A stretch of DNA of 30,818 nt from a virus. The notes beneath the pieces were generated by a model. It was not told the DNA's origin. It did not search any database and saw only the letters and a list, made by a program, of their open reading frames with translations. Location of the stretch: the IMG/VR virus record IMGVR_UViG_3300000101_000091, positions 1 through 30,818 of that record, one strand, 5' to 3'. Below, piece after piece: positions 1 to 26,715 of the stretch. The position numbers were made by a program, and so were the translations under genes. The first letter of the stretch is position 1. The number at the start of each line of letters is the position of its first letter.

Positions 1-965
1 CCCATAAATGCATCAGGAGTAATTACTGAAGCACTATCGTTTAATCCTGTTTCAAGTGCCCATCTATTTGCACTAGAATCATAAGCAAAAGCTTGTCCTT
101 TACCATCTGGATCATCGTCTATTTGATTAATAATAATACCACCATCAATAGCACCATTTGAGCCAGACGCTAATATAATAAACTGATCTGCAACTGCCAA
201 AGAAGATGCACTAACTATTGATCCATTTACTATTAAATTACCTCCAACAGAAGCATTTCTAGAAATTGTAATATCTTGACCGATTGTAACATCATCAGGT
301 AAACTAAGAGTTGCTTTTACATCATTACCAACTTTAGTTATTGCTGTTGTTATTTCATTTGCAGTACCAAGAATTTGTAAATCATCTGCTGTTAAAGATA
401 CATCTTGGGTTCCACTATCACCATCTACAGTTAAAGTAGTAGCAAGTCCTGTTAAATCTGATCCATCACCTTGGAATGAACCACTAAATGATCCACTAAA
501 TAATCCATCACCACTTGCAGCACGTGAAGCACTTGTAGCTGTATCAGCAATACTTGCAGTTGCTGTTGAACTTAATGTTGAAGCTAGAGCTGCAATTGAA
601 GCACTTGTTGCTGTCCTAGCATCTGAAGCTAAATCTGCAAATGATGCCGTTGCGGCAGGGGATAAAGTTGTTGCTCTTGCAGCTACAGAAGCTGAGGTAG
701 CGGTTACGGTAGGTGCTAAAGCGTTTGCACGTAAAGCAACTGAAGCTGTTTGAGCATTTACAGCTGTTGAAGCTGATGTAGCTGTTACTGTTGGAGCTAA
801 AGCATTTGCTCTTAGAGCAACTGATGCTGTTTGAGCATTTATTGAAACAGAAGATGATGCTATTGTTCCTTCTACTGTTCCTGTAAATGAACCTGTAAAT
901 GAACCTGTAACTGAGCTTAACTCTGCATTAGATCCAGATACTATTATTTTTCTCCACGCTGCCAT
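1..965 (-). CDS. Tail-fibre-like protein, C-terminus beyond window edge
   Basis: The reading frame starts with ATG at 965 and stays open to base 1, giving 321 visible residues with no stop. It begins AAWRKIIVSGSNAELSSVTG, an N-terminus of a kind I associate with fibre proteins of marine phages. Low-complexity Ala/Ser/Thr/Val sequence follows, with two near-identical 27-residue repeats at residues 43-96. Next comes a Gly-Ser-Phe motif run (around residues 155-175, ending GDGSDLTGL) that recurs in the fibre at 1366-3039. The rest looks like beta-structured fibre sequence. Its position at the end of a run of fibre genes supports a virion fibre or tail-spike role. No receptor-binding tip is visible because the gene is cut by the window edge. 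There is no Shine-Dalgarno sequence before the start. Confidence 0.8.
   Translation of the reverse strand, partial: MAAWRKIIVSGSNAELSSVTGSFTGSFTGTVEGTIASSSVSINAQTASVALRANALAPTVTATSASTAVNAQTASVALRANALAPTVTATSASVAARATTLSPAATASFADLASDARTATSASIAALASTLSSTATASIADTATSASRAASGDGLFSGSFSGSFQGDGSDLTGLATTLTVDGDSGTQDVSLTADDLQILGTANEITTAITKVGNDVKATLSLPDDVTIGQDITISRNASVGGNLIVNGSIVSASSLAVADQFIILASGSNGAIDGGIIINQIDDDPDGKGQAFAYDSSANRWALETGLNDSASVITPDAFM
678..839 (-). repeat. Two tandem 81-bp coding repeats in the partial fibre gene
   Basis: Residues 43-69 and 70-96 of the partial fibre are near-identical 27-residue units, each containing NAQTASVALRANALAPTVTA. A third, degenerate unit follows. The DNA copies differ at several synonymous positions, so this is not a very recent duplication. 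Confidence 0.85.
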
Positions 966-987
966 ATTAATGTAATTTTAATTTATT

Positions 988-995
988 ATAAATAT
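988..995 (-). promoter_or_regulatory. Intergenic ATATTTAT motif
   Basis: Coding-strand ATATTTAT begins immediately after the TAA stop of the gene at 996-1373 and lies 22 bases before the ATG of the partial fibre gene. The plus strand reads TATAAATA, the T4 late-promoter consensus, but points away from the gene. One of 14 such sites; function unproven. Confidence 0.4.
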
Positions 996-1373
996 TTAAA
1001 TTCCTACAAAGAATTGAGAAGAACTATAATATAACCCACCACTGGTTAGGGTTGGAGTTCCTTCATATTCAGAAAGTTTTAGGATTCCTTCATTGTTAAT
1101 TGTTATACTTGCACTAGCATTACCTGCTAAAAAAACATTTTCACTTAATGAAGATGAAATTTCTAATTTTGCTGATGCGGATACTGTTCCTATACCTACT
1201 CTAGAAGCATTTTTTTGGATTAACATAATTGATTCATTAGTTTCACCATTTATAAATTGTACATCTTCAGTACTACCTACAGTTTGTAATCTTATGGAAC
1301 CCGTTATATCAAAACTATCTGCTTTAAGAAATATAGAACCAGATGCCGGTACTATTCTTATATTTTTAGCCAT
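996..1373 (-). CDS. Small fibre-associated virion protein
   Basis: This 125-residue protein is rich in Ser, Ile and Gly and contains SRVGIGTVSASAKLEIS, a pattern common in phage fibre and tail-tip proteins (RVGIGT followed by S/T-P/A-x-x-x-L). It has no signal peptide, membrane segment or enzyme motif. Its start overlaps the stop of the S74 fibre gene by eight bases (ATGGCTAA), so the two are probably translationally coupled. It may be a fibre tip subunit or a short accessory fibre; which one cannot be decided from sequence. It ends in an aromatic stretch, SSSQFFVGI. Confidence 0.7.
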   Translation of the reverse strand: MAKNIRIVPASGSIFLKADSFDITGSIRLQTVGSTEDVQFINGETNESIMLIQKNASRVGIGTVSASAKLEISSSLSENVFLAGNASASITINNEGILKLSEYEGTPTLTSGGLYYSSSQFFVGI

Positions 1374-3039
1374 CTATTTTAGACTTAAGTGAATCTACTT
1401 CGTCTTTTAATTCTTGTATACTTTTTATTAATACAGAAATTAATTTACTATATTTAATTCCTTGCATTGTTCCATCTATATTTAATGATACAAATTCGGG
1501 ATATATTAAATTTACTTCTTCTGCTATTAGTCCTTTGTCATGATCTCCACTATCTTTCCATTCAAAATCGACAGGTCTTAATTTATAAACATTTCCTAAT
1601 TCATCGGACATGCCTTCAATATTATTTTTAAACCTTAATGCTGATGTTTCTGTTAATGATGTTACAAATGCGGATCCTGTTACTGATAATGAACCTGTAA
1701 TTTGTGCAGAACCACTAAATGGAAAAGCACCACCACCTCCACCTAAACTACCAGTAGTATACGATACTACTCCTGAAGATGTATTATAAGAAAGTATACC
1801 TGGAAGATTATTATTTTGAACAATACTAGAAGTAGCAATGTTAAGACTTCCTGATAATGTTGTACTACCACTAATAAGTAAACTACCTGTTAATGCTGTA
1901 CTGCCACTTACTCTTAATGCTAACCCTGTACTTCCTGTTATTAATAATGTTCCTGATATTGCGGCTGAACCTGTAAATGGAAAGCCTTCAGCTAATCCTG
2001 TTAATAAAGATCCATCTCCTTGATATGATCCACTAAAGGAACCACTAAATATTCCATCCCCACCATTTGCATGAGAAGCTGTTGTAGCAAAATCTGCAAT
2101 TGAAGCTGAAGTAGCTCTATTTGCAAATGATGCTGTTGCTGTAGTATGAGATGCTGAAACAACCCCTGTTAACCCTGATCCATTTCCTATAAACGAACCG
2201 CTTACTGTTCCACTTACAAATAAACTTCCTGTAAATGCTGTACTGCCACTTACTCTTAATGCTAAATCCCCGCTACCCGTAATATTTAATGATCCTGATA
2301 TATCTGCAGAACCTGTAAATGGAAAAGGATCAACACCAGATGTACCACTTGTACCAGATGTACCTGAAGTACCGGCTGGTCCTATATCTCCTGATAAATT
2401 AATTGTCCAACTTGATGCAGTTCCACTTCCACCTGTCCTAGTTACATTTACTGTAAGGTTAGTTCCAGCATAGTTAGTAACTTTACCAGCCATAAAATTA
2501 GCATTGTCTGCAACAGAAACTATAACTGCGGTTTGACCTATAGTCCAAGCTAAATTTGGTGCTACTACAAAGGTTAAAGAACCTTGAGCTATAGTTTGAT
2601 TTGTAGTTGAAGTTGTAGCATATATTCCTCCATCAGCACCAGAAGTACCTGAAGTACCATTTGTACCTGATGTACCTGATGAACCAGAAGTTCCAGATGT
2701 ACCTGAAGAACCGGAAGTTCCTGAAGAACCTGATGTACCTGATGTACCTGATAAACCTGAAGTTCCAGATGTACCAGATGTACCAGATGTACCAGAAGTT
2801 GAATTTCTTTGAGTAAAATTTACTGCACCACTACCTGTATCATACGAGAGCATGAATGGGGCACTAGGGGAATTAGTTATACTACCACTTCTTATACCAA
2901 AACTTCCTGTAATATCAACAGAACCTGATACAATTATGTCATTATTGTCAGTACCATCAAGTGCTTCGATTATCCTTAGAACTTGTTCTGCACGAATTAT
3001 ACTTCCACTCGCTATTCCTGAGGTGCTTATTGTAGCCAT
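1366..3039 (-). CDS. Collagen-like tail fibre with C-terminal Peptidase_S74 chaperone
   Basis: This 557-residue fibre protein has a clear module order. Residues 1-80 are an N-terminal module homologous to that of the fibre at 7036-8682 (shared ISTSGIxSGSII and VLRxIxAL). Residues 81-137 are a Gly-X-Y array, mostly Gly-Thr-Ser. Residues 138-220 are a beta module ending SSWTINLSG, followed by a short second array (223-235). Residues 240-400 hold two beta-repeat units of about 110 residues with the shared motif LALRVSGSTA. Residues 464-557 are an intramolecular chaperone of the endosialidase/Peptidase_S74 family (TSALRFKNNIEG, then KGLIAEEV and a C-terminal coiled coil). In that family the domain helps trimer folding and is then autocleaved, here probably near Ser-466. 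The gene lies directly downstream of the glycosyltransferase gene, which suggests it is a substrate. Confidence 0.9.
   Translation of the reverse strand: MATISTSGIASGSIIRAEQVLRIIEALDGTDNNDIIVSGSVDITGSFGIRSGSITNSPSAPFMLSYDTGSGAVNFTQRNSTSGTSGTSGTSGTSGLSGTSGTSGSSGTSGSSGTSGTSGSSGTSGTNGTSGTSGADGGIYATTSTTNQTIAQGSLTFVVAPNLAWTIGQTAVIVSVADNANFMAGKVTNYAGTNLTVNVTRTGGSGTASSWTINLSGDIGPAGTSGTSGTSGTSGVDPFPFTGSADISGSLNITGSGDLALRVSGSTAFTGSLFVSGTVSGSFIGNGSGLTGVVSASHTTATASFANRATSASIADFATTASHANGGDGIFSGSFSGSYQGDGSLLTGLAEGFPFTGSAAISGTLLITGSTGLALRVSGSTALTGSLLISGSTTLSGSLNIATSSIVQNNNLPGILSYNTSSGVVSYTTGSLGGGGGAFPFSGSAQITGSLSVTGSAFVTSLTETSALRFKNNIEGMSDELGNVYKLRPVDFEWKDSGDHDKGLIAEEVNLIYPEFVSLNIDGTMQGIKYSKLISVLIKSIQELKDEVDSLKSKIDG
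2335..2373 (-). repeat. Short Gly-Thr-Ser triplet array
   Basis: Residues 223-235 of the S74 fibre are four Gly-Thr-Ser triplets plus a glycine, immediately after the WTINLSG beta module. The DNA unit is nine bases, for example GGTACATCT. Confidence 0.85.
2629..2799 (-). repeat. Collagen-like Gly-Thr-Ser/Gly-Ser-Ser triplet array
   Basis: Residues 81-137 of the S74 fibre have glycine at every third position, with Thr-Ser, Ser-Ser, Thr-Asn or Leu-Ser between. The nine-base unit varies in its third codon positions. The array could change length by slippage or recombination with the arrays in the neighbouring fibre genes. Confidence 0.9.
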
Positions 3040-3063
3040 TTATTTTCTATAGATTATTCTATA

Positions 3064-3071
3064 ATAAATAT
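3064..3071 (-). promoter_or_regulatory. Intergenic ATATTTAT motif
   Basis: The motif shares one base with the TAA stop of the glycosyltransferase gene and lies 24 bases before the start of the S74 fibre gene. Same core as the other 13 intergenic sites. Confidence 0.4.
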
Positions 3072-5383
3072 TAAACAAGGCTGCTAATAACGCCTTCTAT
3101 TACGATTTCGGGAGAGATTTTTTTAGTACATTCAAATTGTCTAGGAGTGTTTTTATGGGACGGACACCAATCCCAATCACCAGCATCTAACTTATGATTA
3201 TTAAAACAAGAATTGCATACATTTTTGTTTATAATCCTAGTTATTTTAGAAGAAAATTCAGTCCATTCCGAACTAAATCCTGAAATCATTACAACTGGTT
3301 TTTCTATAGCCCAAGATAACCAAGCTAAACCACTTGACACTCCTATATATAATTCTGAATGGTGTAATATACTTACTATATCTTCTATAGGATGATCACC
3401 TGTAAAATCTATAATATTTTGTAATTTTTTTCCTTTTGGAAGTTTTGAATTATGAAAATCATCATTATGCCCTTCATGTGAAATTAAAATTACTTTATAA
3501 TTTAAAGTATTGTTAATATAATTAATAACATCTTGCCATCCTGTAGGATGTTGCCAATATTTAGCTCCTGCTGAAGCGTGGGGTGAAATACAAATGTATT
3601 TTTCCTTACATGGTCTATCTTTTATTTTATATTCTATTTTAGGTATAATTTCTTTATATTCTAAGCCTAAAATATTAGTTGCAGTTTGTTGTAAACTAAA
3701 TGATTTGGGATCCTCAGGTTGTTTAAATTTATCTAAAATATCCGTTTCATTTTCATAATACCATCCTAGTTCATACATAGCGTATAAATTAGGAACTTCA
3801 ATACCAGGTTCTTCAAATGTTAATTCGGGATATTTATTTTTGAAAAATTTATTCCAAAAAGTAGAAACTATTAAATGACACTTGTGTTTTTTCTTAAATT
3901 CTAAGGCATATGGAAACCAAGCTAAAGTATCACCTAATGATTTTGAACCACAGGCAATATAAATACGTTTATTAGCAGCATCATACTTATGAGAAGCAAT
4001 AAGATTTCCTTGTAAATCTTTTAATTGAATATCCCAATTAATAAAATATTTGAAATAGGTTTTACCCCAATGGTTATTTTTTAAAGTTACAGAATATTCG
4101 TTTTTACCAGTATCTTGATTAATAAAATCAACTTTATATTTTTGTTTAGCATTTCTTAAACAAACATAAGGACCATCTACAAAATTTATTTCTAAATAAG
4201 GTAATGATGGCGTTGGATTTATTTGGATTTGTTGTAATCTTTTATATGCTTTTTGTGCTTGATTTTTCCAAGAAAAAGTGTTTCTTATTACTTTTGAATT
4301 TTTTAAATGCCATTGTTTCCAATCAGCATAATTTTCATATGAATCTTTTATTTGAGATACTAAATGCTCTAAATCAGGTGTGTAGAAGTTGCCTGGAATG
4401 TTGTGTTCATAGGTTAAATCTTTGCCATTTGTAGCTGGTTCTTCACCTATTATATCTACTCCTAATCCTTTACCTTTAGTAAATTCAAGTTGTCCTGAAC
4501 ATTTAGTGTAAATTGAAGGTGTTCCACAAGCTAGGGATTCAATTAAAGGTAAATTCCATCCTTCAGCACGGGCACAAGATATTACTACATTAGCATTTTG
4601 TAATAATTTAACATATTGTTTTCTATCTAAAAATTTTAATATTTTTATTCTACTATCTTCTAATCCATAATGTTTTAAACGTTCTTCTGTAGTTTGCATT
4701 CCATCTACAGGATATGGATTTTCAACATTTAATAATAATTCAACATTTGGATTATCAGGAAAAGCTTCTAAAAATCCTCTAATACTTTCTTTTATACCCT
4801 TTCTATAATCCCATCTACCTACTATAACAAATTGAAATTTTAATTGTTTAGCTGGTCTTGATGGTGGTTTAAAAGTAGTTCCATCTACTCCTTCAGGTAC
4901 AACAAATATTTTATCTTTAGGATATCCTTGTTCTATAGATATAGACTTTTGCCATTCTGTAGGTACCCAAAGTTCATCTAAGTTTAAAAGTTGTTGAAAA
5001 AATTGAGGTGAATAACGTGTTGATTCCCAAACATTGTACCCTATTTTATACCCATCATAATCATCATAAAATAAATGGTGATCATGTTCATTTAAAATTA
5101 TATTAATATCAGCTGTAAAATTATCATCATAAGAATATATAGGTTGCCATATTCTACTACCATCATCTTCAAATAGTACTTGTTGATGAAGCATTTTCTT
5201 CATCTGAGATGTTAGGTATGGTTCTTTATCATGAGGTGTTAAATTATAACCTTGCCATTTTTTTCCTACTGTAAAATTTCTAATTTTAACAGGAGTAAGT
5301 TTATCTAAAGCTGTAAAAAAAGATTGTGCATGATTTGCATAACCTGTAGTGCCAATAAAACTTGTAGCAGCGAGTATATTCAT
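3071..5383 (-). CDS. GT4 glycosyltransferase fused to TibC/Aah-type O-heptosyltransferase
   Basis: This 770-residue protein has two glycosyltransferase halves. Residues 1-385 are GT4/GT-B: a glycine-rich N-terminus (GTTGYANHA), VVPEGVD, FVIVGRWDYRKG, and the E-x7-E nucleotide-sugar motif in ARAEGWNLPLIESLACGTPS (Glu274, Glu282). Residues 400-770 match the autotransporter O-heptosyltransferase family (TibC, Aah). They include KSLGDTLAWFPYALEF (481-496), SPHASAGAKYW (600-610), GVSSGLAWLSWAIEKPVVMI (681-700) and a terminal cysteine finger, Cys723-x2-Cys726-x13-Cys740-x11-Cys752, as in the iron-binding finger of TibC. TibC-family enzymes transfer heptose from ADP-heptose to serines of repetitive adhesins. 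Here the gene sits between fibre genes rich in Gly-Thr-Ser arrays, so virion fibres are the likely acceptors. The sugar used is not determined by sequence. There is no signal peptide, so it acts in the cytoplasm. Confidence 0.9.
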   Translation of the reverse strand: MNILAATSFIGTTGYANHAQSFFTALDKLTPVKIRNFTVGKKWQGYNLTPHDKEPYLTSQMKKMLHQQVLFEDDGSRIWQPIYSYDDNFTADINIILNEHDHHLFYDDYDGYKIGYNVWESTRYSPQFFQQLLNLDELWVPTEWQKSISIEQGYPKDKIFVVPEGVDGTTFKPPSRPAKQLKFQFVIVGRWDYRKGIKESIRGFLEAFPDNPNVELLLNVENPYPVDGMQTTEERLKHYGLEDSRIKILKFLDRKQYVKLLQNANVVISCARAEGWNLPLIESLACGTPSIYTKCSGQLEFTKGKGLGVDIIGEEPATNGKDLTYEHNIPGNFYTPDLEHLVSQIKDSYENYADWKQWHLKNSKVIRNTFSWKNQAQKAYKRLQQIQINPTPSLPYLEINFVDGPYVCLRNAKQKYKVDFINQDTGKNEYSVTLKNNHWGKTYFKYFINWDIQLKDLQGNLIASHKYDAANKRIYIACGSKSLGDTLAWFPYALEFKKKHKCHLIVSTFWNKFFKNKYPELTFEEPGIEVPNLYAMYELGWYYENETDILDKFKQPEDPKSFSLQQTATNILGLEYKEIIPKIEYKIKDRPCKEKYICISPHASAGAKYWQHPTGWQDVINYINNTLNYKVILISHEGHNDDFHNSKLPKGKKLQNIIDFTGDHPIEDIVSILHHSELYIGVSSGLAWLSWAIEKPVVMISGFSSEWTEFSSKITRIINKNVCNSCFNNHKLDAGDWDWCPSHKNTPRQFECTKKISPEIVIEGVISSLV

Positions 5384-5417
5384 AACGGTTAAATATAATA
5401 ACTTTTATTGGATTATC

Positions 5418-7031
5418 CTATAATTGTGATGATTTTTTTGGTTCTAATATTTCTAATTTACCTTGGTTAAATCGTTGGGCATGTACTATATAATAACAAT
5501 TAGGTTTACCACATTCACATCCTATTTCAATTTGTTCTCTTGTAACAGATTTTACAAAATGTTGACAAGCATTTCCTATTGGTGTAAGTTGTACTGTAAT
5601 ATCAGTATCATCTACAGGTAAATCTTTCCAATAATCTGGAAGATGAATAACATCACTAACATTTAATTTTCCTCTATGATATATTCCACGTTCCGGCCCT
5701 TCTAACGATGAATGTACTAAATAATAACCAGGCATTGTAGGATGGTTTATTTTAAAGTTTTTGGTTGCTGCACTTAAAGTACCTTGTACAAAAATATCCC
5801 CTACAACAGTTAAAAGACTTGAAGTAGTACCAGATGATGTAACAAATGTTAAATCTTGATTAACTCTAACAGCATCGGATCCAGATCTAACTAAAGATAA
5901 AAGTCCAGAAGATGTTGATCCTGAAATATCAAAACCTGCCCCACTAGTACCTGATGTACCAGATGTACCTCCACTTTGTCCTGATAAGTTAATTATCCAA
6001 TTAGTGTATGTTCCAGATCCAGCAAGTTCTGTACAATTAAATGTTAAAACACCTGTTGATGCATTATAAGCAGTAACATTACCTAACATATAAATTGAAG
6101 GTAATCCATTTGGAGTTACTATTACAAACATTCCATTAGAATAGGCTAAACCTGCTCCTAATGTTAGTGTTTTTAAACCTGTAGTAACTGTTAAAGCAGT
6201 AGTTGATGTTGTTTTGTATGTTGCTCCACTAGTACCAGATGTACCGGCAGTACCAGAGGTACCACTTGTACCAGATGTACCTGATCCACCTCCTCCACCA
6301 CCACTAGTTGATCCTGATAGTAAAGTAAAATATTGATTTAAGCCAATATTAAAACCTGCAAAATCTGAACCAATAGGTAATCCTTCTAATCCTGGTGTAG
6401 CTTTAGAAAATTCGGGAGATAATGAGCCTGTAGTAGTTAAATCTACTATTGCTATATTTGTTTCAGCAGTTTGGATTGTGTCACCTGAATCTGCTTCTAT
6501 TCCATCTTCTCCCCATTCTATAAAAAATGATAATTTTGCAGTTTGAATATCTCTTTGAACAACTTCACTTACATTATATATGTGTTGTCTTCCAGTTACA
6601 GTAGCATTATTACTTTTAGCTTGAGCTAAAACTGCAAAACTAGAAGATGGGCTACCTGTAACAGATCCTGTAATATCTAAAACAGATAATTTATTTTGAG
6701 GATCTACAAAACTTGCTGAAGTAACTAAATATGAACCAGAAGGTGTAGAAAAACCTATTGTATCATCTGTAGCACTAGAAACAGCATTTTCAGATAAAGT
6801 TATAGAAGTATAATCTGATGCAAAGGCTGTAATATATGCACTAGTTGGTATAGCTCCCGCTACTGAAAATACAGATTGAGAAATTCTAAGTAAAGTAGGA
6901 TCTCCGGTGTAGGTTATACTAGAAATAGTAGGTGATCCTGCAGCAAAATTACCTTCTAAAATAACAATATTTTGGTTATTAATAGATTGCGCTGTAATCG
7001 ATCCAAAAAACTGTTGGTTTACATATGCCAT
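5418..7031 (-). CDS. Collagen-like tail fibre with EGPE-type C-terminal domain
   Basis: The 537-residue protein has a unique N-terminal beta region (1-245), a Gly-rich hinge (244-249), a Gly-Thr-Ser array (251-269), a beta module (271-350) ending TNWIINLSG, a second short array (354-364) and a C-terminal domain (424-530). The C-terminal domain contains KNFKINHP, SLEGPERGIYHRGKL, LPDYWKDL, ITVQLTPIG and a final YYIVHAQR. I recognise this combination from fibre proteins of T4-like marine phages. A cysteine cluster, CECGKPNC at 505-512, lies inside it and may bind metal. The N-terminus differs from those of the two paralogous fibres, so it may attach elsewhere on the virion. It lies directly upstream of the glycosyltransferase and is a plausible substrate. 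Confidence 0.88.
   Translation of the reverse strand: MAYVNQQFFGSITAQSINNQNIVILEGNFAAGSPTISSITYTGDPTLLRISQSVFSVAGAIPTSAYITAFASDYTSITLSENAVSSATDDTIGFSTPSGSYLVTSASFVDPQNKLSVLDITGSVTGSPSSSFAVLAQAKSNNATVTGRQHIYNVSEVVQRDIQTAKLSFFIEWGEDGIEADSGDTIQTAETNIAIVDLTTTGSLSPEFSKATPGLEGLPIGSDFAGFNIGLNQYFTLLSGSTSGGGGGGSGTSGTSGTSGTAGTSGTSGATYKTTSTTALTVTTGLKTLTLGAGLAYSNGMFVIVTPNGLPSIYMLGNVTAYNASTGVLTFNCTELAGSGTYTNWIINLSGQSGGTSGTSGTSGAGFDISGSTSSGLLSLVRSGSDAVRVNQDLTFVTSSGTTSSLLTVVGDIFVQGTLSAATKNFKINHPTMPGYYLVHSSLEGPERGIYHRGKLNVSDVIHLPDYWKDLPVDDTDITVQLTPIGNACQHFVKSVTREQIEIGCECGKPNCYYIVHAQRFNQGKLEILEPKKSSQL
5940..5972 (-). repeat. Short Gly-Thr-Ser array
   Basis: Residues 354-364 of the EGPE fibre, just after its WIINLSG beta module. 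The order (beta module then short triplet array) is the same as in the other two fibres. Confidence 0.8.
6225..6281 (-). repeat. Gly-Thr-Ser triplet array
   Basis: Residues 251-269 of the EGPE fibre, preceded by a hexaglycine stretch. It is shorter than the arrays in the two paralogous fibres. Confidence 0.85.
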
Positions 7032-7035
7032 ATTC

Positions 7036-8682
7036 TTAGAATGTTACTCTAATCATATTGTTAACTAAAGATGTAAGTCCTGATATATTAAATCTATTAA
7101 AATTTGAGGATGTATTTAAAGTTATTACAGCAGATGTATTTTGAACACCATCACTTAATTTAAAGGCTTGAGTTATGGGTGGGTTTTGGTTTACTAAACT
7201 ACTATTAGCACCTGCTCCATTAGATATAGAGGTTGGTAATATTAATAAAAATGAAGTTGTGTTTTTAGTTCCTGTTACTACATTTATTGAATTTATTTGG
7301 CAATTTCCAGAATTAGGTGCAGTAATAGTTACTCCCCCTTCAGAAAATGAACTAGCCGAAAATGCTGGTATATAAGCACCTTGTGTACCTGATGTAGCTC
7401 CAGAATTTGGTACAGTACAAGTTAATGTATTTGCATCTGTAGCTGTAACTTGAACATAATTATAATCAGTACTTACATTTCTTATAATAACATGATTACC
7501 TGTAGATAAACCATGTGCTGTAGATGTAATTGTTAAAGTTGTAGTTGCTCTACTCCAAGTTAAATTTCCAGTAACAGCTCCAGTAGATAAAATTTCTATT
7601 CTACCATCTACTCCTGAATTTCCGTTATCTAAAGCTTCATATCTAATATTAGGAGTAAAAACAGTAACTAATGAAATTCCTGATGAACCACTAGATCCAG
7701 ATGTTCCGGATGAACCATTTGTACCACTTGTTCCATTTGTACCACTTGTACCTGAAGTACCAGATGTACCTACCGCTCCCGCAATACCACTAGTACCTGA
7801 TGAACCAGAAGATCCATTTGTACCACTTGTACCTGAAGTACCTACAGCTCCTGCAATTCCACTTGTTCCAGATGAACCACTAGATCCTGATGAACCACTA
7901 GATCCAGATGTTCCGGATGTGCCTGCAGCTCCTGCTCCCCCATCAGAACCACTTGTACCAGAAGAACCATTAGTTCCACTTGTTCCATTTGTACCTGAAG
8001 TACCAGATGTACCTGATGTACCTGGTAGGGATTCTAATGATATAGTCCAATCACCAAATGTTCCACTTCCTCCTATTACCGTAACACCGACAACAAGAGT
8101 AGTTCCAGAATATGATGTTACACTTCCTAACATTTTGTTAGCATTATTAGCATCTGATGAAATAGATACACTTTGTCCTGCTGTAAACCCTAAATTTTCT
8201 TGTGTTGTAAATGTTTTTGCACCTACTGCTATGTTAGTAGAAGTAGTTGAAGTACCTAAATATGAAAATCCAGAAGTACCGGATGTACCAGTAGCACCAC
8301 TTGTACCTGATGTACCACTACTACCTGAACTTCCAGTTAAACCTGAAGTACCAGATGATCCAGTATTACCTGAGGTACCATTTGTACCACTAGTACCATT
8401 TGTTCCGCTCGTACCTGAAGTACCATTTGTACCACTTGTACCCGAAGTTGAATTAGTAGTATAAATATCTCCTGAAGAAGTATTGTATGCTAAAATAACT
8501 GCTTGATCTGCTACATTTATTATACTAGCAGTAGCAATTCTCATTGTTCCAGAAACATTTAAAGAACCAGAAACAACGAGATCATAAGAACCTGTTCCGT
8601 TTAAAGCATCTATTGGTCTTAAAACGTGGATTGGTTCTATTATACTTCCACTCGATATGCCTGATGTACTTATTTGTGTCAT
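7036..8682 (-). CDS. Large collagen-like tail fibre
   Basis: The 548-residue protein starts with the same module as the S74 fibre (ISTSGISSGSII, VLRPIDALNGTG, residues 1-75). It then has a triplet array (81-138), a beta module (139-218, ending FGDWTISLE) and a long second array (221-335) of about 38 Gly-X-Y triplets. Inside the long array the unit GTSGIAGAVGTSGTSG occurs twice, a recent internal duplication. The C-terminal 210 residues are beta-rich, with STAHGLSTGNHVIIRNVS and an Asn/Ser/Thr-rich end, and no S74 domain. Such arrays form trimeric rods in bacterial and viral collagen-like proteins. The tip probably binds a receptor, but nothing identifies the target. It begins the fibre operon, behind an ATATTTAT motif. 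Confidence 0.88.
   Translation of the reverse strand: MTQISTSGISSGSIIEPIHVLRPIDALNGTGSYDLVVSGSLNVSGTMRIATASIINVADQAVILAYNTSSGDIYTTNSTSGTSGTNGTSGTSGTNGTSGTNGTSGNTGSSGTSGLTGSSGSSGTSGTSGATGTSGTSGFSYLGTSTTSTNIAVGAKTFTTQENLGFTAGQSVSISSDANNANKMLGSVTSYSGTTLVVGVTVIGGSGTFGDWTISLESLPGTSGTSGTSGTNGTSGTNGSSGTSGSDGGAGAAGTSGTSGSSGSSGSSGSSGTSGIAGAVGTSGTSGTNGSSGSSGTSGIAGAVGTSGTSGTSGTNGTSGTNGSSGTSGSSGSSGISLVTVFTPNIRYEALDNGNSGVDGRIEILSTGAVTGNLTWSRATTTLTITSTAHGLSTGNHVIIRNVSTDYNYVQVTATDANTLTCTVPNSGATSGTQGAYIPAFSASSFSEGGVTITAPNSGNCQINSINVVTGTKNTTSFLLILPTSISNGAGANSSLVNQNPPITQAFKLSDGVQNTSAVITLNTSSNFNRFNISGLTSLVNNMIRVTF
7678..8022 (-). repeat. Long collagen-like Gly-X-Y array
   Basis: Residues 221-335 of the large fibre: glycine at nearly every third residue with Thr-Ser, Thr-Asn or Ser-Ser, plus Gly-Ile-Ala and Gly-Ala-Val interruptions occurring twice in the same context. 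Almost every non-glycine position can carry an O-linked sugar. There is no proline, unlike typical collagen. Confidence 0.9.
8269..8442 (-). repeat. Collagen-like Gly-X-Y array
   Basis: Residues 81-138 of the large fibre, mostly Gly-Thr-Ser, Gly-Thr-Asn and Gly-Ser-Ser. It follows the N-terminal module shared with the S74 fibre at the same residue number (81). Confidence 0.9.
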
Positions 8683-8718: not shown

Positions 8719-9618
8719 TTATACAACTGTTTCCTTAAATATAGTTTTAGTTACACTATAAGATTTTGGATCAGGACCAGCCATAGCTGCTTTAATACCT
8801 GTAGGTATAATATACCCATTTACTAAAACATTCATAGTTGACCTATTAGCTCTATCTGAGCCACTTTCAAGTAATATAGGTGTATTAAATGTATCTATAT
8901 TAGCTCTAAACATAAACCTTTCAGGATCACCCCAGTATGAACGAGCAGCGAATTCTATGGCTTCTATTATTTCATTTGCTTGGGTTGTATAATCAGTAAA
9001 TACGGATAATGTATAATTTAAATCGATATAGTCAGGAATTACACCTAATATATAGGATTTTTCAACTTTTTGATCTCTTAATACATTAAAATTATCATAA
9101 ATATTGTTTCTTGAATATTGAGTTTCAAAATATTCTACATTACTTACTTTATTTCCATCTAATTTATTTCCTAAAGTATTATTTTTACTAAAGTTTTCTC
9201 TTTTAATCATAACAAGAGGCACCATAGTTTTACCATTTCTGTCTCTATAAAAACCATCAGCCTGCATAGATTTCCATCTTTCAGGAGAACCATATATAAC
9301 AGGAACTTCTATTTGTCTATTATTTAAAGTAACTGTTGGTTTAATTGCTTTTTCTAAATAATACACCATTGCATTATCTATATCTTGTAAACCTATAGAA
9401 AAAGGTTTATTTTTTATTTCATCAACTGAAGATTGTTTTGCATCTTTAAATGAAACTTGTGTAGCTCTATTAAATTCGGGTTGTCCTGGTTTTAATATAG
9501 TAGAAGATACATCATTAGGATTACCTGCTACCTCTACATTTGTATCAGGGTTCACATATGGTTCAGGAAGTTTAGACATAAACTCTCTTCTGGTAAATGG
9601 TCTAGGTTTAAATTCCAT
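8719..9618 (-). CDS. Tail completion/sheath stabiliser protein, gp15-like
   Basis: A 299-residue protein with no membrane segment. It contains IEVPVIYGSPERWKSM (around residue 100) followed by a short variable stretch and VPLVMIKRENF, then a region describing a tail-like fold (LNYTLSVFTDYTTQANEIIE). This order resembles the tail sheath stabiliser gp15 of T4-like phages, where a VPxxYG motif precedes a conserved hydrophobic strand. That assignment is by pattern and position only. The start overlaps the stop of the gp14-like gene (TAATG), so the two are translationally coupled. It is the last gene before the fibre locus. Confidence 0.6.
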   Translation of the reverse strand: MEFKPRPFTRREFMSKLPEPYVNPDTNVEVAGNPNDVSSTILKPGQPEFNRATQVSFKDAKQSSVDEIKNKPFSIGLQDIDNAMVYYLEKAIKPTVTLNNRQIEVPVIYGSPERWKSMQADGFYRDRNGKTMVPLVMIKRENFSKNNTLGNKLDGNKVSNVEYFETQYSRNNIYDNFNVLRDQKVEKSYILGVIPDYIDLNYTLSVFTDYTTQANEIIEAIEFAARSYWGDPERFMFRANIDTFNTPILLESGSDRANRSTMNVLVNGYIIPTGIKAAMAGPDPKSYSVTKTIFKETVV

Positions 9619-10109
9619 TATAATCTTTGTTCTTTAATACCCCATTTCTCTGGTCTTGACCAGTAACAATTCACTATTATTGAATGACTTTCTCCAAAGT
9701 CATCTACTGTTTCACTATATGGATACGAAGGATCTTTACCAACTACTAGTTGATTTTCTACTAAATTATTAACTTCATAATAATCTTCATTCCATACTAT
9801 TACATCTCCTATTTCAGGAAATACATTTTGTTGTGTTAGATCGTATCTAAAAAATCGAGCTGATAGTGTTCTATTTCTATCTATTCCAAAGTCATCATCA
9901 GTTACAGTTTGTTCGCCTCTATCTAGCAAACATTTAATTAAAACAGGGCCTATCAACGTTTTACTTTGCGCTTCGCCGTAAATATTGGCGGGTGTATCAT
10001 CAAGTTTTACCTTGTAGTATCCTACCTGTTGTTCGATGATTTTATGTAATAGTTCTGTGTTTAATCCCCGAAATAATCTAACATCTCTTGCTTTTCCGTA
10101 TAATGCCAT
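9618..10109 (-). CDS. Neck protein, gp14-like
   Basis: This 163-residue protein starts ALYGKARDVRLFRGLNTELL and has VGYYKVKLD, NIYGEAQSKT and IGDVIVWNEDYYEVNN, a pattern of head-tail connector (neck) proteins in T4-like phages. T4 gp14 is longer (about 256 residues), so this would be a short version. It lies one base after the gp13-like gene and overlaps the gp15-like start (TAATG). The T4 order 13-14-15 is therefore kept, which supports the calls mutually. Confidence 0.6.
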   Translation of the reverse strand: MALYGKARDVRLFRGLNTELLHKIIEQQVGYYKVKLDDTPANIYGEAQSKTLIGPVLIKCLLDRGEQTVTDDDFGIDRNRTLSARFFRYDLTQQNVFPEIGDVIVWNEDYYEVNNLVENQLVVGKDPSYPYSETVDDFGESHSIIVNCYWSRPEKWGIKEQRL

Positions 10110-10110
10110 A

Positions 10111-11268
10111 TTATGCTATATAAATTGGAATTGGGACTTGTTCTAAAGTTGTTACCATAGCAACAGCTTCTTCTGCTTTTCTTTGTAATTGTGATCTTCT
10201 AGAATTTTCGTCTAAATCATTTCTTAATTTTTCAATTAATGCAGCTTTTAAATCAGTAGCAGAAGATAATAAAGCATCTTGATTTAAAGTAACTTCGGCA
10301 CCAGGAATTGGAACTTGAGAGTATTTACCTCTAATATATCCTAATAATTCTTTAGCTAATGCTAAAGTATATTCAAAAATCCAATATCTACCAGGAGCAT
10401 TTATAAAATCGTAATTTGGGTTTTCGTATGGTACTGTAGACATATCCGTTACTAGATTACTTCCTGAAAATTGAGGTCTAATAGGTGAATTTCTTTCGTC
10501 CACTAAAATATACTGAAAACGTAATTGTCCTCCATCACTAGTTGGTATAGGAAATATTTTTAGTTGGTTATTTACTAACTCAAATGAAAATCCTGATCGC
10601 CTAATTGTATCATTCAATTCAATAGCTTGGATTACAGAAACATCATAATAAATAGGCATTAACATAAAATTAATTGCCGGAGAATAGTTTCCAAATCCAA
10701 ATACATCTAATAATTGTTGGGAACCATATCCTGTACCTGCATAAGGATCAAAATATTTTACAATAGCAGGTGTATTTTCATAAAAAATACGTTTTACTTC
10801 AATAGATCCTGTAATTCCTTGACTATCTTTCCAAGCATTTAAATCATAATCTTGTTGATTACAATTCATTGTTATTGATCCTGAATACCAGTCTATATAC
10901 CCACCTGCACCTGCTTCTGATCCATAATCTTCAGCAATTCTAATTATATTACCTAAATTAGGTTGAATTACACTTCTATTTAATGAAGAACCTGTACTAA
11001 ACGCTTCTAAAGTTATAAAATTATTTCGTATTTGATATAAATAAAGCTCATTACCATATGTAGTTACTGCTTCTTCAAAACAAGCATATAATGACCCACT
11101 ACCCATTTCTATATCAACAGTAGGATATCCTAAACGAGTAGCACAAAATTCTGCTACTTTATCAGCATCTGTTTGAAAAGCTGCTTCGTTATCATAGAAT
11201 CCAAATGGAGTTTGTCCAGGGACAAAATTTGATGTTCCGGTCCATATTATAGGTGATTGTTCTGCCAT
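10111..11268 (-). CDS. Neck/head-tail connector protein, gp13-like
   Basis: A 385-residue structural protein. Recognisable parts are an N-terminal segment LGYPTVDIEMGSGSLYACFE, a Gly/Ser/Tyr-rich middle, and a C-terminal helical region (YWIFEYTLALAKELLGYIRG, then PIPGAEVTLNQDALLSSA) seen in connector proteins of marine T4-like phages. There is no enzyme motif. It follows the small virion protein at 11289-11738 and precedes the gp14-like gene by one base. The gp13 name rests on order and general resemblance rather than on a diagnostic motif. Confidence 0.55.
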   Translation of the reverse strand: MAEQSPIIWTGTSNFVPGQTPFGFYDNEAAFQTDADKVAEFCATRLGYPTVDIEMGSGSLYACFEEAVTTYGNELYLYQIRNNFITLEAFSTGSSLNRSVIQPNLGNIIRIAEDYGSEAGAGGYIDWYSGSITMNCNQQDYDLNAWKDSQGITGSIEVKRIFYENTPAIVKYFDPYAGTGYGSQQLLDVFGFGNYSPAINFMLMPIYYDVSVIQAIELNDTIRRSGFSFELVNNQLKIFPIPTSDGGQLRFQYILVDERNSPIRPQFSGSNLVTDMSTVPYENPNYDFINAPGRYWIFEYTLALAKELLGYIRGKYSQVPIPGAEVTLNQDALLSSATDLKAALIEKLRNDLDENSRRSQLQRKAEEAVAMVTTLEQVPIPIYIA

Positions 11269-26289: not shown

Positions 26290-26715
26290 TTATTTTAATA
26301 ACCAACTACTTGATTGGATTTTACCACCCAATCCTTCTATTAAAGATATACCAAGTTCTTGACATATCCTAGCTTCTGGTATGGAATCGTTATTTTGATC
26401 ACCACCATTTGCAAATGATATTTGATATTTAGGATCATTAGCTATTGATTTAACATAAAGTGCTCTTAATGTTTCACTTACTGTTCTATCCTCATCAATA
26501 GCTATCATGGAAAAATTCACCATTTTAAGACTGCTTACTATAAGTAAACGTTCATCTTCTCCCATAAATTCTTTACTACCTTTTAATCCACGTTGCAAAT
26601 CACTATTAACAATAACCCATAACTCATCACCCTGTAATTTTGCTTTATTAAAAAGCTCAAGATGACCTTTATGTATCGGGTTAAAATATCCTGATACTAT
26701 TATGGCTGTTTTCAT
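26290..26715 (-). CDS. HxGH nucleotidyltransferase, RfaE/HldE C-domain-like
   Basis: The 141-residue protein is a complete single-domain nucleotidyltransferase. Its HxGH motif is in SGYFNPIHKGHLELFNKAKL (HKGH, 15-18), ISFANGGDQNN lies at 99-109, and the C-terminal SSSWLL (135-140) is in the place of the family's S-T/S-S motif. The pair NGGDxx...IPEARICQELG is more like the heptose-1-phosphate adenylyltransferase domain of RfaE/HldE than like NMN adenylyltransferases, but I cannot exclude NadR-type activity or glycerol-phosphate cytidylyltransferase. It would use ATP or CTP to activate a sugar or NMN. The start overlaps the preceding stop (TAATG). A link to the TibC-type transferase at 3071-5383 is suggestive. 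Confidence 0.8.
   Translation of the reverse strand: MKTAIIVSGYFNPIHKGHLELFNKAKLQGDELWVIVNSDLQRGLKGSKEFMGEDERLLIVSSLKMVNFSMIAIDEDRTVSETLRALYVKSIANDPKYQISFANGGDQNNDSIPEARICQELGISLIEGLGGKIQSSSWLLK

Follow-up and report, generated by a model that had tools for sequence, protein, structure and literature searches.

A phage fusion of a GT4 glycosyltransferase and a TibC-like domain, encoded among Gly-Thr-Ser tract fibre genes and probably glycosylating the phage's own fibres

Introduction

TibC and Aah, the bacterial enzymes of the BAHT family (TIGR04414; structures 4rap and 4rb4) that O-heptosylate autotransporter adhesins, are the closest described relatives of the protein analyzed here. This protein, a 770-residue fusion of a GT4 glycosyltransferase with a TibC-like domain, is encoded on the minus strand (positions 3071-5383, ATG start) of the viral record IMGVR_UViG_3300000101_000091, whose 30,818 nucleotides constitute the window of this study. 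The record comes from a T4-like marine phage with terminase, portal, protease and Gp23 capsid genes and, on the same strand as these, a fibre region. The fusion resembles TibC and Aah in its fold with an N-terminal beta-barrel, in its catalytic Asp, Lys and Trp residues and four-cysteine finger, and in that its gene adjoins that of a likely substrate. It differs from them in the GT4 fusion itself, in the loss of the donor-contacting Arg286, in an altered thumb length and in its placement in a separate, well-supported clade; its partner is a fibre with Gly-Thr-Ser (GTS) tracts, and no autotransporter gene is found next door in the window. We propose that the fusion is probably a phage-encoded cytoplasmic protein O-glycosyltransferase that acts on the phage's own fibres before assembly, with Ser/Thr of the GTS tracts as the likely acceptor.

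Two described systems serve as analogies for glycosylation of fibre tracts by such an enzyme. In Clostridioides difficile, where a glycosyltransferase gene also lies beside that of a collagen-like protein, SgtA attaches the initial sugar to Thr (or Ser) in the Gly-Pro-Thr tract of BclA3 (PMC7157674); unlike the fusion, SgtA is an O-GlcNAc transferase of the GT-A fold that uses UDP-GlcNAc as donor, and its product belongs to the spore surface rather than to a virion. Mimivirus L230 is likewise a virus-encoded enzyme glycosylating the virus's own collagen-like protein (PMC9614988), but it is unrelated to the fusion, comes from a eukaryotic virus, hydroxylates Lys and adds Glc to hydroxylysine. 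Virion proteins of mycobacteriophages also bear glycans (Freeman et al. 2023, as cited in PMC12619734), which, unlike those proposed here, are located at the C-termini of capsid and tail-tube proteins. Finally, the nearest solved fold for the GT4 half is that of another virus-encoded GT-B enzyme, B736L of chlorovirus NY-2A (3oy2), which binds GDP-mannose best (PMC9614988); this protein shares 14% identity with the GT4 half, its acceptor is not known and it is not fused to TibC.

A full-text literature search yielded no description of a TibC-type enzyme in phages. We know of no TibC domain reported in mycobacteriophage virion glycosylation. Both TibC-type protein O-glycosylation and the glycosylation of virions have been described before, but the literature searched contains no description of the two together, of the GT4 fusion or of the tract substrate. 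An earlier interpretation of this DNA (the sequence-only reading) knew of no described phage virion O-heptosylation system; virion glycosylation by phage glycosyltransferases as such is already known from mycobacteriophages.

Results

The fusion protein and its two halves

The fusion and its parts are located in the window as follows.

3071-5383, minus strand: GT4-TibC fusion glycosyltransferase, 770 aa, with profile, PDB and predicted-fold matches
4214-5383, minus strand: GT4 half with GT-B fold, residues 1-390 (PF00534; Z 33.5 to 3oy2)
3074-4198, minus strand: TibC/Aah-type half including the N-terminal beta-barrel, residues 396-770 (TIGR04414; D485, K608, W688)
3125-3217, minus strand: four-cysteine finger, residues 723-753 (C723, C726, C740, C752)

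Profile searches confirmed the two-domain composition proposed in the sequence-only reading. The GT4 half matches PF00534 with 46.4 bits (cut-off 26.4) and, over residues 3-386, phrog_2170 (1.6e-34); its EX7E motif occupies residues 274-282, and both E274 and E282 are invariant among 49 aligned homologues. The TibC half matches TIGR04414 (hepto_Aah_TibC) with 305.8 bits against a cut-off of 200, covering profile positions 15-370 of 374, and it also matches the TibC chains 4rap/4rb4 of the PDB (E about 4e-53). The complete Aah/TibC signature is present as well: GDTLAWFPYALEF starts at residue 484, and the finger cysteines are found at precisely the four positions that had been named. A model computed with AlphaFold2 on 49 homologues has a mean predicted local distance difference test score (pLDDT) of 86.7 and a predicted template-modelling score (pTM) of 0.58, which leaves the angle between the two halves unsure. 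Residues 394-770 of the model superimpose on TibC (4rb4/4rap) with Z 37.8 and an rmsd of 2.7 Å across 358 residues, with the four-cysteine finger kept, so that the comparison with TibC which the sequence-only reading had suggested agrees by both profile and structure. Residues 1-390 resemble GT4-type enzymes, the best match being chlorovirus B736L (Z 33.5, 352 residues).

We rejected the identity of the TibC half as a GT9 heptosyltransferase of the lipopolysaccharide type, as all equivalog models for WaaC, WaaF and WaaQ score below their cut-offs (RfaQ 37.4 bits against 467, heptsyl_trn_I 30.6 against 185.3, heptsyl_trn_II 21.2 against 134.6 and heptsyl_trn_III 27.7 against 170.2). Conversely, GT9 heptosyltransferases of this type from 369 gammaproteobacterial genomes score less than 40 bits on TIGR04414; therefore, the match of the TibC half is not a generic GT9 match.

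Scanning viral contigs identified 183 relatives, and all 80 loci that were kept encode the same GT4-TibC fusion. A chance origin of the fusion is thus excluded. We then placed the positions named in the TibC paper (PMC4358343) on the 80 fused phage homologues. The catalytic base Asp110 and the sugar-binding Lys230 and Trp305 of TibC correspond to D485, K608 and W688 of the fusion, and C339, C342, C358 and C370 of the TibC iron finger to the cysteines C723, C726, C740 and C752; all seven residues are invariant (80/80). TibC Thr226, likewise sugar-binding, corresponds to Ser604, the position being occupied by Thr in 67 and by Ser in 13 homologues. Judged by these residues, the fusion looks catalytically intact, i.e. 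active.

Association with GTS tracts in phages

Fibre genes with GTS arrays lie on both sides of the fusion gene, as the sequence-only reading had noted, and a third tract gene follows further upstream.

1366-3039, minus strand: downstream neighbour of the fusion, a 557-aa fibre with two GTS tracts (residues 83-136 and 220-237) and a C-terminal Peptidase_S74 chaperone; likely substrate
5418-7031, minus strand: upstream neighbour of the fusion, a 537-aa protein with two GTS tracts (residues 248-271 and 355-363); likely substrate
7036-8682, minus strand: collagen-like fibre gene, 548 aa; tracts at residues 81-140, 221-277, 281-301 and 305-337; likely substrate

The spacing is tight and all genes are on the same strand: the fusion begins 34 bp after the tract gene at 5418-7031 and ends 31 bp before that at 1366-3039. 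The description of the locus as collagen-like holds in part. The Pfam Collagen model (PF01391) is above its cut-off in the product of 1366-3039 (36.8 bits, together with PF13884 at 33.9 bits) and in that of 7036-8682, which is strongly collagen-like (79.8 bits), both also matching tail fibre PHROGs; it stays below the cut-off in the adjacent product of 5418-7031, whose match is phrog_17490, a family of unknown function. A separate promoter for the fusion was rejected, because promoter-like sites in the region are not in excess (28 observed versus 44.5 expected), a result that is consistent with a single operon without proving it.

The same arrangement recurs beyond the window. Within the window clade, a tract gene lies 27-46 bp from the fusion in 12 of 12 scored close relatives, and in ten loci of a more distant fused clade giant tract genes are located 67-68 bp upstream of it. 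For standalone phage TibCs, a tract gene lies nearby in 20 of the 23 whose upstream sequence extends for 7 kb or more. Twenty fused-clade records were also searched, almost all of them selected for lacking a tract within 8 kb of the enzyme; 7 nevertheless contained tracts, among them each of the four that exceed 50 kb. A control with the reversed pattern gave zero, and none of 26 randomly taken viral records (32-269 kb) contained tracts. In the reverse test, a TibC-like gene was present in 7 of 108 loci chosen solely by their tract DNA, compared with 0 of 70 random loci (p = 0.043) and none of 71 capsid loci without tracts (p = 0.0026). Presence of the enzyme is a good predictor of tracts, whereas tracts are a poor predictor of the enzyme.

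Bacterial relatives and the tree

A scan of bacterial genomes revealed two kinds of TibC-like relatives. Tract-protein genes flank the TibC-like genes of Methylobacter luteus, Methylobacter BlB1, Methylomicrobium RS1, Polaromonas and several gammaproteobacterial genomes. Their products are small, secreted or lipoprotein-like, carry a hallmark (G-T/S-S)n tract and are encoded on either side and either strand of the enzyme gene. In every one of the 12 chromosomal loci with tracts, the enzyme has the tract gene at most two genes away, against 4.3 loci expected, a result reached in none of 20,000 permutations. TIGR04414 was above its cut-off in 2 of 369 gammaproteobacterial genomes, both with a tract gene beside it, in a draw centred on M. 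luteus, itself one of the two positives; the strict tract pattern occurred in four genomes, one of which has the enzyme. The bacterial tract protein and TibC-like gene are apparently an undescribed enzyme/substrate pair. Bacterial (GTS/GSS)n tract proteins, some with Asp-rich ends, were seen at our loci L275, L277, L279, L280, L282, L285-L289, L292 and L515.

A tree of 163 TibC-like domains, built by a quick method with support from the Shimodaira-Hasegawa-like approximate likelihood ratio test (SH-aLRT), contains a fully supported branch that separates 38 bacterial rows, TibC included (clade A), from the 125 others. Clade A loci have no GTS tracts nearby and all retain Arg286; 8 of 10 large Gly/Ser-rich neighbours scanned in this clade contain an autotransporter beta-domain. 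The second clade comprises all viral rows and the tract-linked bacteria, and 11 of its 13 bacterial genes that we judged to be chromosomal rather than on phage-like contigs have a small GTS-tract protein encoded no more than two genes away. In clade A the neighbour is the biochemically known class of substrate, and by the same logic the tracts would be the substrate in the second clade. This contrast between the clades amounts to a single deep split, which limits its independence, and the varied gene orders inside the second clade are better evidence than the split itself. We have filed the fusion as a TibC-like sister branch rather than BAHT proper, because the donor Arg and an autotransporter partner were both checked and neither is present.

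Donor and thumb residues

TibC Arg286 touches the adenine of the donor and confers ADP specificity, and its Ala mutant is inactive (PMC4358343). The corresponding position is Ile669 in the fusion and Ile, Val, Thr, Leu or Ser, never Arg, in 80 of 80 fused homologues; among unfused ones, Arg is found in 66 of 77 bacterial and 67 of 74 viral sequences, the latter set coming from a profile scan. As a residue required for TibC activity is replaced in every fused homologue, ADP-heptose should not be assumed to be the donor of the fusion. TibC Pro300 corresponds to Ser683, and Aah likewise has Ser here (Ser294), which permits binding of both ADP-heptose epimers (PMC4358343). A heptose donor supplied by the phage was rejected: the HldE nucleotidyltransferase domain (TIGR02199) is above its cut-off in none of the 17 enzyme-bearing records tested, so that the supply, were heptose used, would rest on the host. 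Given the lost Arg286 and this general absence of the HldE domain from records of the family, the "O-heptosylation" of the sequence-only reading is unsupported as stated.

Some 20 kb from the fusion, the window encodes a CTP_transf_like protein (26290-26715, minus strand, 141 aa). After the general superfamily model, its nearest named match is HldE domain II, a weak likeness (48.5 bits against a cut-off of 181.5); the product could be a sugar-nucleotide or other nucleotidyltransferase.

In TibC, a beta-hairpin thumb with Phe265 and Val266 assembles the dodecameric ring. This thumb region is 52 residues long in 38 of 38 clade A sequences, 56 in the window clade and 42 in 36 of 39 other fused forms. 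The thumb residues Phe265 and Val266 of TibC align with hydrophobic residues of the fusion, I657 and I658, at a place where the alignment is unsure. The changed lengths outside clade A fit an altered substrate shape.

Gene neighbourhood and variants of the module

Other features of the fibre region are listed below.

3-965, minus strand: fibre-like protein of at least 321 aa, truncated at the contig end; Ser and Thr make up 27%, and there is no triplet tract
996-1373, minus strand: Ser/Thr-rich protein of unknown function, 125 aa, kept downstream of the fibre in the window clade
8719-11268, minus strand: three conserved genes (299, 163 and 385 aa), markers of a syntenic slot

The 385-aa protein matches phrog_211 (head-tail adaptor). 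The 385/163/299-aa genes upstream of the window's fibres are homologous to the trio directly upstream of the fusion in three loci of the other fused clade (L029, L038 and L057); thus the two clades share one genomic slot, located ahead of the tail genes. A 181-aa Pro/Val-rich frame antisense to a GTS tract (7919-8464, plus strand) is most likely an artefact of repeat codons, not a gene.

The fusion is also carried by an isolate, Microcystis phage Mel-JY01 (L082, PP395634.1), whose record annotates it solely as an FkbM methyltransferase. This gene (4747-8430) encodes 1227 aa, with about 480 aa separating the GT4 and TibC halves, and the tract open reading frame 1.7 kb upstream of it (about 1-3052) is partly overlaid by annotations on the opposite strand; a short tract open reading frame is found 1 kb downstream. 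In addition to this middle insert, variants include a C-terminal PIG-L deacetylase domain (L022) and an FkbM domain plus a DXD-type glycosyltransferase placed in front (L106). A profile scan of viral sequences confirmed at least 588 stretches, and the newly kept ones mostly encode a standalone TibC form of about 400 aa. Around it a gene order recurs, consisting of a tract fibre, a GT4/GT25-like protein, a GT4, TibC and a gene that we read from its sequence as tail-sheath-like. The idea that the GT4 half is a fused version of the glycosyltransferases in these operons is unsupported, as a profile of the fusion GT4 does not match them.

Several further observations concern the surroundings of these genes. 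In three loci (L015:2286-3179, L050:10292-11179 and L081:3397-4275) the fusion is directly followed by a tandem copy, another TibC-like gene or part of one (about 292-297 aa). Oxygenase genes of the 2-oxoglutarate-Fe(II)/PKHD type, named by profile in L053 and by sequence likeness in L068, L076, L106 and L160, lie a few genes from the TibC-like gene and might hydroxylate fibre tracts or sugars. Relatives carry, just upstream of the fusion, genes resembling those of adenylylsulfate kinase and nicotinamide mononucleotide (NMN) adenylyltransferase, or one for a HAD-like protein, accompanied by a 72-aa protein (L055:6968-7791, L022:7068-7791), a possible activated-sulfate or nucleotide route. Finally, L273, L274 and L296, binned as flavobacterial or other metagenome-assembled genomes, resemble phage pieces with the same module; their binning is a weak hint of Flavobacteriales among the hosts.

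Discussion

The fusion would be co-produced with the fibres from one operon. Most likely, its TibC-like half would transfer, in the cytoplasm, a first sugar (heptose or another) from a nucleotide-sugar donor to Ser/Thr of the Gly-(Thr/Ser)-Ser tracts, the GT4 half would add the next sugar, and the fibre would be assembled after modification. We infer the activity, the acceptor residues and the order of the halves from the observed domains, folds, catalytic residues, packing with fibre genes and tract pairing. The recurrence of enzyme and tract in phages and bacteria supports Ser/Thr of the tracts as acceptor; fibre Ser/Thr, which the sequence-only reading had also singled out, remain the likely substrate in view of this pairing in several phage gene orders and on bacterial chromosomes. 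Candidate benefits are protection from proteases, solubility or stiffness of the stalk, tuning of adsorption and evasion of host factors.

Several results weigh against this proposal. Owing to the Arg286 replacement and the remodelled thumb, both substrate and donor may differ from those of TibC. GTS tracts do not need a TibC-like enzyme: 101 of the 108 tract loci have no TibC-like gene in the stretch examined, and a general link between tracts and glycosyltransferases was rejected, since glycosyltransferase families are about equally frequent beside tracts and in random viral open reading frames (about 4 against 3 of 120). In the distant fused clade, 16 of 26 loci with long upstream flanks show no tract nearby, and some members of the fused clade have no tract in the surrounding 8 kb and lie among other glycosyltransferases, oxygenases and sugar-nucleotide genes, a setting that fits work on surface glycans too.

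It is this setting that sustains the chief competing explanation, in which the enzyme alters the surface polysaccharide (lipopolysaccharide or O-chain) of the infected cell and thereby blocks superinfection. In part of the fused clade the neighbours include a PseB-like dehydratase, a PIG-L deacetylase domain and a flavin enzyme besides other glycosyltransferases, and modification of the O-chain with a superinfection block was proposed for glycosyltransferases in the host recognition/tail-fibre cluster of pelagimyophages (PMC7029224). We nevertheless regard it as unlikely: the four-cysteine finger and beta-barrel of the TibC half are not found in lipopolysaccharide heptosyltransferases, the family profile separates the two (306 bits versus less than 40), the fusion gene sits within a fibre operon, and bacterial enzymes of the same clade pair with tract proteins. 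Slightly less likely still, the fibres could be glycosylated outside the tracts, for example on Ser/Gly-rich beta-repeats like the strand-loop-strand acceptors of AIDA and TibA. The known TibC substrates are beta-helical repeats (PMC4358343), and neighbouring fibres also hold Ser/Thr-rich repeats other than tracts, including the tract-free product of 3-965; however, the tract is the main feature common to the short bacterial partner proteins, and the tract-paired clade is separate from the one paired with beta-helical autotransporters. That the fusion acts on the DNA of phage or host, or represents a moron gene unconnected to fibres, is very improbable. Phage glycosyltransferases often glucosylate DNA (reviewed in PMC12619734), but proteins are the substrates of the TibC family, the window has no DNA-modification genes next to the fusion, and the tract gene keeps its close spacing in all 12 close relatives.

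A true ADP-heptose:protein O-heptosyltransferase is a special case of the favoured fibre O-glycosyltransferase, so that confidence in the two overlaps. The retained catalytic Asp, Lys and Trp and the correspondence of S683 to Aah Ser294 speak for it, whereas the replacement of Arg286 in all fused homologues and the lack of an HldE nucleotidyltransferase domain in the records tested speak against it, leaving heptose possible but doubtful. Similarly tentative is a broader view, in which the TibC branch common to phages and bacteria is a dedicated O-glycosyltransferase of GTS tracts, tract and enzyme form a portable module found in phage fibre stalks and bacterial secreted proteins, and the GT4-fused forms have moved off ADP-heptose and make at least a disaccharide.

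If the fibre O-glycosyltransferase proposed here is correct, phages possess O-glycosylation machinery of their own for the tail fibres, on which host range depends, and there would be an explanation for GTS tracts, which are common yet unexplained in fibres of aquatic phages. The predicted pair is a simple one, consisting of one enzyme and one repeat peptide, and the loss of Arg286 in the fused form offers a clear sequence marker of a possibly changed donor. The TibC family would thereby extend beyond autotransporter adhesins to a second class of substrates.

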